In this document: positions 389 to 1,034 of the stretch, piece after piece
Layout: the number at the start of each line of letters is the position of its first letter
How positions within the stretch are numbered: the stretch's first letter is position 1
Source: Chamaesiphon sp.
GTDB lineage: Bacteria; Cyanobacteriota; Cyanobacteriia; Cyanobacteriales; Chamaesiphonaceae
Length of the DNA: 16,253 nucleotides
NCBI GenBank assembly: GCA_026786125.1
Contig: JAJAYU010000015.1
Location: 1-16,253 of the forward strand
Direction of reading: 5' to 3'
Made by a program: the position numbers and the translations under genes
Notes under the pieces: model-generated
Told to the model about the DNA's origin: nothing
Seen by the model: the letters and a program-made list of their open reading frames with translations, nothing else
Databases searched by the model: none

Positions 389-469
389 CTAAGCAGCAGC
401 CACAATTTCAACGCGAACTTCCATCCCAGCATGAGTTAACATCGTAATTAATGGCTCAACTTGAAATCG
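389..469 (-). pseudogene. Displaced 3' end of the HTH antitoxin gene (26 codons plus stop)
   Basis: On the minus strand, a frame from 469 down to the TAG at 389-391 reads RFQVEPLITMLTHAG, then MEVRVEIVAAA. This is the usual C-terminal helix and strand of the HTH_37-type antitoxins (HigA/XRE class). It has no start of its own. It lies in a different frame from the antitoxin codons upstream, separated from them by the 22-bp insert. Joining codon Asp66 (492-494) directly to the Arg codon at 467-469 gives a continuous 92-residue antitoxin with the junction GDID-RFQVEP. The conserved amino-acid pattern shows it was coding until recently. Confidence 0.8.
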
Positions 470-491
470 TTGGCGTAGCCTACCGGAGGTA
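470..491. repeat. 22-bp twin-palindrome insert, resembling a cyanobacterial small dispersed repeat
   Basis: The 22 bases hold two small adjacent palindromes, GGC-GTA-GCC (472-480) and TACC-GGA-GGTA (481-491). Removing exactly these bases restores the antitoxin reading frame. The word GGCGTAGCC followed by a second short palindrome is a common pattern in the very small dispersed repeats described in filamentous and other cyanobacteria. That assignment is from memory of the family. A chance AATCG repeat flanks it (465-469, 491-495), but a 26-bp insertion based on that repeat would not restore the frame, so I prefer 22 bp without target duplication. Confidence 0.65.
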
Positions 492-689
492 ATCGATATC
501 GCCTGCGAGCAATCCTTCCACACAATCATTCGTCGTTTTCAGATGTACCGCCGCTGCTTCTAAACTCCATTGTTTCGATCGAATTAACTTCCGCAAACTA
601 ATCATCAAATCCGATCGAACTCTCAAATTTTCTGATTCCTCAGCCGAGAAACCTAGATCTTCAAAAATATTTTGATTAGTTTGAGTCAT
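480..689 (-). CDS. HTH (HigA/XRE, HTH_37-like) antitoxin, truncated by frameshift
   Basis: This is the probable antitoxin partner of the upstream toxin. Seen: 69 residues with the N-terminal pattern NIFEDLGFSAEESENL typical of HTH_37 proteins, then a helix-turn-helix (about residues 28-60, with WSLEAAAVHLKTTND...GLLAGDID). Such proteins bind their own operator and neutralise the toxin. The ATG (687-689) overlaps the toxin stop as ATGA, so translation is probably coupled. After Asp66 the frame enters the 22-bp insert, adds YLR and stops. The natural 26-residue C-terminus lies in another frame at 389-469. The DNA-binding part is therefore kept, while the C-terminal part, often involved in dimer or toxin contacts, is lost. 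Whether the short product is stable or still neutralises the toxin cannot be seen from the sequence. Confidence 0.75.
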   Translation of the reverse strand: MTQTNQNIFEDLGFSAEESENLRVRSDLMISLRKLIRSKQWSLEAAAVHLKTTNDCVEGLLAGDIDYLR

Positions 690-1027
690 TCTAAATCATC
701 CTGGCGTTGTTGCAGCATTTGTTTGTATCGTTGTTGTCCAATCTCAATATCGCTACGGGAAGTTTTCTGAGTCTTCTTTTGAAACGCATGAAGAACATAT
801 ACAGATTCCTCAAACCTAGCGACATAGAAAATACGGTAAGCATCTTCAGTCCGAATGCGGATCTCCTCCACCCCTTTCCCTACCGTGGACATCGGCTTGA
901 AGTCTGAGGGAAGATCGCCTTGCTGAATCGATCGTAACTCAAACCCAGCCTGACGACGTGCATCATCAGGAAAGTCCATCAGATCTTTTTTCACAGCACC
1001 AATCCATTGGATAGGTTTATCGGTCAT
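686..1027 (-). CDS. RelE/HigB-superfamily toxin (phage Gp49-like)
   Basis: A 113-residue protein of the Gp49-like/HigB family; members are usually ribosome-dependent mRNA endonucleases paired with an HTH antitoxin. Seen: the N-terminus KPIQWIGAVKKDL, the stretch FKPMSTVGKGVEEIRIR (about residues 43-59), AYRIFYVARFEESVYVLHAF (63-82) and the C-terminal KKTQKTSRSDIEI, all standard family blocks. Length is normal and I see no internal damage, so the toxin looks intact. The order is toxin first, then antitoxin, with a 4-nt overlap, as in higBA. It starts only 7 nt after the thrB stop and I see no Shine-Dalgarno sequence, so it may be expressed by read-through and translational coupling from thrB. 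Toxicity is inferred from family membership only. Confidence 0.85.
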   Translation of the reverse strand: MTDKPIQWIGAVKKDLMDFPDDARRQAGFELRSIQQGDLPSDFKPMSTVGKGVEEIRIRTEDAYRIFYVARFEESVYVLHAFQKKTQKTSRSDIEIGQQRYKQMLQQRQDDLE

Positions 1028-1034
1028 GAGGGAA

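Follow-up and report, generated by a model that had tools for sequence, protein, structure and literature searches.

Genes and features of the locus

The window, i.e., the whole stretch of 16,253 nucleotides analyzed here, is from a Chamaesiphon genome (G000) whose assembly is 77% complete. A toxin-antitoxin pair is positioned between thrB and, at 1-372, the apparent end of a hydrogenase large subunit gene (hoxH, assigned by eye) (Table 1). The antitoxin reading frame overlaps the 3' end of the toxin gene by 4 bases. The antitoxin is split after residue 66, and residues 67-69 (YLR) are encoded by an insert. The second open frame, used as a protein query, returned 5 proteins, none of which was recognized as its counterpart.

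Table 1. Features of the toxin-antitoxin locus in window coordinates.
Feature	Position	Strand	Basis
Homoserine kinase gene thrB	1035-1955	minus	name by eye
Gp49/HigB-like toxin, 113 aa, intact	686-1027	minus	PF05973, E 5.6e-27; conserved positions kept except S75
Truncated HTH_37 antitoxin reading frame, 69 aa, ends DYLR-stop	480-689	minus	ORF list, profile search, AF2 model
Stranded C-terminal end of the antitoxin with last helix and tail, other frame	389-469	minus	HTH_37 positions 57-79; alignment with relatives
Open second frame through insert into C-terminal piece, 46 aa from ATG	389-529	minus	ORF list
22-bp dispersed repeat, very probably SDR5-like	470-491	minus-strand reading	absent from L018/L023; dispersed copies; stem covariation
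Insertion site, HIP1 core CGATCG split into CGAT and CG by the insert	466-497		sequence; same flanks in 4/4 G000 copies

An antitoxin in two frames

The HTH_37 domain (PF13744) is covered in two pieces, and no single uninterrupted reading frame carries it in the window's antitoxin. The first piece takes up profile positions 1-57 (E 4.1e-6; 26.9 bits, just below the cut-off of 27). The second, in another frame, takes up positions 57-79, is weak when considered alone (E 0.1), and abuts the first exactly. A search with the toxin located two related pairs, L018 in genome G006 of the same genus and L023 in genome G025 of another family of the same order. Their DNA is 85.5% (L018, over window positions 395-1029) and 83.9% (L023) identical to the window. 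Compared to both, the window has 22 additional bases, 470-491, which in minus-strand reading are positioned between CGAT and CG. The antitoxins of L018 and L023 comprise 91 aa each in one frame, and 26 residues of the stranded C-terminal piece of the window align with them. The original prediction, made from the letters of the window, was that exactly these 22 bp break the antitoxin, that its C-terminus is preserved in the other frame, and that the toxin looks undamaged. The exact coordinates, the abutting profile pieces and the two relatives without the 22 bp bear out the break, and the second profile match together with the alignment to the relatives bears out the preserved end.

When 386 genomes of the phylum were searched with the L018 antitoxin (E ≤ 1e-5), 21 matches in 18 genomes were obtained. 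Nineteen of these are in a single frame and stop-free to at least residue 83 of 91; the other two are the pieces from the window. A chance origin of the arrangement was rejected because the profile pieces abut and the relatives lack the 22 bp; the core pattern of the insert was matched in only 9 of 200 shuffles of the window. An assembly error is unlikely because assemblies other than this one contain the identical protein end and, in relatives, a single gene aligns with both flanks.

The toxin indeed looks undamaged. It covers the Gp49/HigB family profile at full length (1-90; 94.1 bits at a cut-off of 23.9) and retains 46 of 47 positions which are at least 95% conserved among the 120 homologs listed of 4144. 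Its only sequence match in the PDB is HigB of Streptococcus pneumoniae HigBA (6AF3/6AF4; E 0.009). Aligned by eye, R65, F82, and K84 of the window toxin correspond to R73, F90, and K92, reported as catalytic in S. pneumoniae HigB (PMC7984235). With PADLOC the toxin matched NsnC weakly (E 0.00066). Relatives of the toxin are found on plasmids in 466 records.

Versus L018 the dN/dS ratios are 0.09 for the toxin, 0.10 for the first antitoxin piece, and 0.07 for the C-terminal piece (25 codons). In the latter, the changes specific to the window are two silent ones and one replacement, with 2 sites unassignable. By these comparisons the insertion looks recent, with little power as to selection since.

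The insert is a dispersed repeat

In minus-strand reading the 22 nt consist of two short hairpin arms, TACC-TCC-GGTA and GGC-TAC-GCC, followed by AA. A 20-base core pattern, 2 mismatches being allowed, was matched 4 times in G000 and not once in its reversed control. With a 28-base pattern which includes the flanks (up to 3 mismatches), the number of copies was 4 for G000 and ranged from 9 to 37 among 8 congeners; altogether 18 of 60 genomes were matched, among them 9/9 of the genus, and the reversed control gave 0 in all 60. The 12 matches of a looser 17-base pattern in G000 (3 mismatches) were not counted since its reversed control gave 6. An exact scan of named contigs located the repeat in 21 stretches, 20 of them titled Chamaesiphon and one Nostoc.

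The folding of the window's single copy is no better than that of shuffles. Across copies the stems were compared by leaving one or the other free in the search pattern, which yielded 80 and 82 copies in 9 genomes with the free stem varying in 19 and 21 of them, respectively. Among the stem pairs, one-sided changes which still pair number 5 and 1, and broken pairs 14 and 8. Two-sided changes which still pair number 7 and 15, and neither count was reached by any of 5000 shuffles; the copies are related, 12 of the 21 varying ones sharing a CGC/GCG variant, so independent events are fewer than these counts.

CGATCG is present in the window 49 times versus 4.3 expected from dinucleotides. On the plus strand of the window the insert splits this core as CG/ATCG, at the point which corresponds to that between nucleotides 3 and 4 of HIP1. 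All four G000 copies found with the core-only pattern are flanked by CGAT and CG, as are copies in 44 of 48 distinct contexts, most of which were found using patterns that contain those letters; the full HIP1 octamer is present in only 7 of the 48. It is very probable that the insert is an SDR5-like small dispersed repeat.

Two further places may be mentioned. In L002 (828-1345) a short reading frame, by eye similar to the C-terminal portion of acetate kinase, starts about 28 bases away from a copy; when the surroundings of this copy served as a DNA query, no clear empty site was retrieved. In L010/L047 (G000:C155, 1338-1354 and 1573-1797) another HTH_37 locus has, at a distance of about 220 bases, a diverged repeat-like sequence which departs from the 17-base pattern by 2 mismatches.

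Truncated ends in other antitoxins

A protein search with the L018 antitoxin, lengths limited to 0.55-1.75 times that of the query, returned 114 proteins. Seven of these end in IDYLR: P0089, P0090 (the window), P0091, P0095, P0104, P0111, and P0114; the six others were compared as predicted proteins. The original prediction had set against itself the case of relatives with the same 69-residue protein and no conserved downstream C-terminus. Six other predicted proteins do end identically, and the 69-residue form is not unique to the window. Their YLR ends presumably derive from the same repeat element.

At the place of truncation an in-frame YLRAGFRQ is found in P0112 and a gain of 8 residues in P0057; P0088 terminates there in DFKSSH and P0101 in DFKLSH. 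At other places of the antitoxin, residues have been added in frame between LIR and W in 10 proteins, and 3 have SLQERFAN; a coding-degenerate DNA pattern for the latter matched 0/9 genomes of the genus. Proteins with in-frame extra residues at these two other places are P0054, P0058, P0101, P0102, P0107, P0108, P0110, P0111, P0112, P0114, and P0091. At least one of the two places has CGATCG in the window or its relatives.

In a tree of the 114 antitoxins the YLR label requires 6 changes, at least 4 of them forced by starred branches, with a mean of 6.9 after shuffling. These changes may be gains or losses, and the tree is poorly resolved (91 columns for 114 rows; 49 inner branches out of 111 are open and the bootstrap had not settled). 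One inherited truncation, i.e., a single clade, was rejected (AU p 0.001 for all seven; p 0.013 without P0104). A single clade of P0095, P0111, and P0114 alone is compatible with the data (p 0.21).

P0095, which is truncated, and P0145, a toxin of 113 aa, are each from one JGI contig of 1505 bases. Probably this is the same contig, which would place a truncated antitoxin beside a full-length toxin. A corresponding pairing of P0170 with P0111, both from contigs of 1378 bases, was dropped, as the toxin group of P0170 is more distant (77%).

The C-terminal motif is absent in 13 of the 114 proteins, 12 of which end near the place of truncation. By pattern, 19 have no N-terminal motif, which in 14 cases reflects a missing N-terminal part, perhaps partly due to start calls or contig ends. 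Searched with four strings, the 114 proteins gave no instance of the element read in a different frame. A special tolerance for breaks at the place of truncation is not claimed, since N-terminal losses occur too.

A sister copy and the mobility of the pair

In L023 the situation is reversed. Its antitoxin is intact, and its toxin gene is split by a copy of the repeat, 93.5% identical over 31 bp, at a place which corresponds to a CGATCG in the window's toxin; the region concerned is L023 1501-1861. This copy is the only match to the repeat in genome G025 and carries the CGC/GCG variant, which is shared by 12 of the 82 copies of the genus. The simplest reading is that it came as a passenger when the pair was transferred from a Chamaesiphon-like donor.

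The gene thrB was found in 8 of 9 genomes of the genus. In the stretches examined in the 7 other congeners which possess it, neither a toxin nor an antitoxin match (E ≤ 1e-4) is located beside thrB in any of the 7, nor is the end of hoxH. The gene hpf, on the other side of thrB, is kept in 6 of the 7. The pair in L018 has a different gene neighborhood. Thus, the toxin-antitoxin pair looks mobile, because it is absent beside thrB in the congeners and is surrounded by other genes in L018.

The 69-residue form

An AF2 model of the intact L018 antitoxin (pLDDT 85.2) has helices at 8-11, 16-38, 43-49, 54-62, and 70-79. The model of the window's 69-residue form (pLDDT 82.9) has all of these except the last. 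By family profile the best solved matches are 2a6c and 2o38. In S. pneumoniae HigA a strand (6-9) and helices 10-17 and 20-42 contact the toxin, 47-54 and 58-66 constitute the helix-turn-helix, and a helix at 73-83 precedes the dimer strand 85-91 (PMC7984235). For Vibrio cholerae HigA2 it is reported that the N-terminus neutralizes, that helices 4 and 5 dimerize, and that a dimerization mutant does not repress (PMC11006873). Judged from the models and by analogy, the toxin-binding helices and the helix-turn-helix are retained in the 69-residue form, and what it loses is the last helix and the tail, which the closest solved relative uses for dimerization. On the same analogy it should dimerize and repress poorly; that it still neutralizes the toxin has about even odds.

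Interpretation

We propose that the insertion of the repeat truncated the antitoxin, and that the shortened protein still restrains the toxin and represses its own operon poorly. We would give this reading a probability of roughly 0.55. The recent insertion of an SDR5-type repeat of 22 bp into a CGATCG site of a mobile, higBA-like pair would have supplied a stop codon after residue 66 of the antitoxin. The product would retain the N-terminal helices expected to neutralize the toxin, plus the helix-turn-helix. The last helix and the C-terminal tail, expected to dimerize, would be lost, and repression of the operon would be weak. The insertion relative to L018 and L023, the repeat family, its CGAT/CG context and the identical end of other predicted proteins are shown directly; the recency, the origin of the other YLR ends from the same element, the neutralization, the loss of repression and the manner in which the element moves are the parts of this scheme which we infer. 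Among the explanations listed with the original prediction a truncated antitoxin which still works is the best supported, if only indirectly.

The main rival is decay of the module. The repeat would have knocked out the antitoxin, and the toxin, being inactive, unexpressed or without its promoter, would be tolerated and not yet degraded. We regard this as the less likely course. In its favor, it is the toxin that is broken in G025, so a loss of the pair's function is tolerated somewhere; homologs missing either end of the antitoxin exist, and with 14 of 114 devoid of the N-terminal part there is more than one way in which the gene breaks, as would be expected of decay. Further, the pair is absent beside thrB in 7/7 congeners with thrB and is therefore dispensable. 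Against decay stand the conserved positions of the toxin (46 of 47) and its dN/dS of 0.09 versus L018, which weigh little since the toxin would in any case still be intact after a recent insertion, and the second truncated antitoxin, P0095, which probably resides beside the full-length toxin P0145.

A second antitoxin might act in trans; six other HTH_37 loci are present in G000, four of them above the family cut-off, and the incompleteness of the assembly leaves room for more. Yet these six are more distant, and at E ≤ 1e-5 the L018 antitoxin matches in G000 only the two pieces of the window, which renders a rescue in trans improbable. Even less credit can be given to a full-length antitoxin still being made, via ribosomal frameshifting or from insert-free molecules. 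The second frame is open from before position 529 through the insert and the C-terminal piece is still conserved; however, the recency of the insertion explains this conservation, and inspection by eye revealed no shift motif familiar to us.

Tentatively, and with considerable doubt, one may view the repeat as a portable stop codon which has repeatedly made antitoxins that neutralize, do not dimerize and do not repress, an allele that would have persisted with the loss of the end being tolerated or useful. Mobile repeats of such small size are mostly known as litter of the genome. The present one is located inside a gene pair with a testable consequence and could show how a repeat of 22 bp alters regulation. 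Tests can dispense with altered sequences because intact and truncated antitoxins, as well as a toxin gene split by a sister copy, are available naturally among the relatives. Filled and empty sites can be compared to study the movement of the element.

Comparison with known systems

The helix layout of the S. pneumoniae HigBA antitoxin is like that in the model of the intact relative L018. HigA of S. pneumoniae was not retrieved from the PDB by the family profile, and the shared layout is to be taken as an analogy. In the antitoxin of V. cholerae HigBA2 the N-terminus neutralizes and the C-terminal helices dimerize, as expected here; HigA2 differs in its disordered N-terminus and is unmatched by the family profile.

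A literature search, which mostly did not extend to subscription papers, brought up no report recognized as describing this element in Chamaesiphon. SDR5-type repeats are dispersed and about 21-27 nt in length. A study of 2008 by Elhai et al. is said to have dealt with SDR families in cyanobacteria and to have claimed compensatory stem changes. A later paper states that SDR5 is precisely inserted inside the HIP1 palindrome, between the third and fourth nucleotides (PMC4390886, citing Elhai et al., 2008). Unlike in SDR5, the target here is CGATCG and not the whole octamer, and the insert is located inside a gene. Like SDR5, the element of the window is very short (22 bp) and dispersed, and its stems display compensatory changes; in the window it splits CGATCG at the corresponding point.
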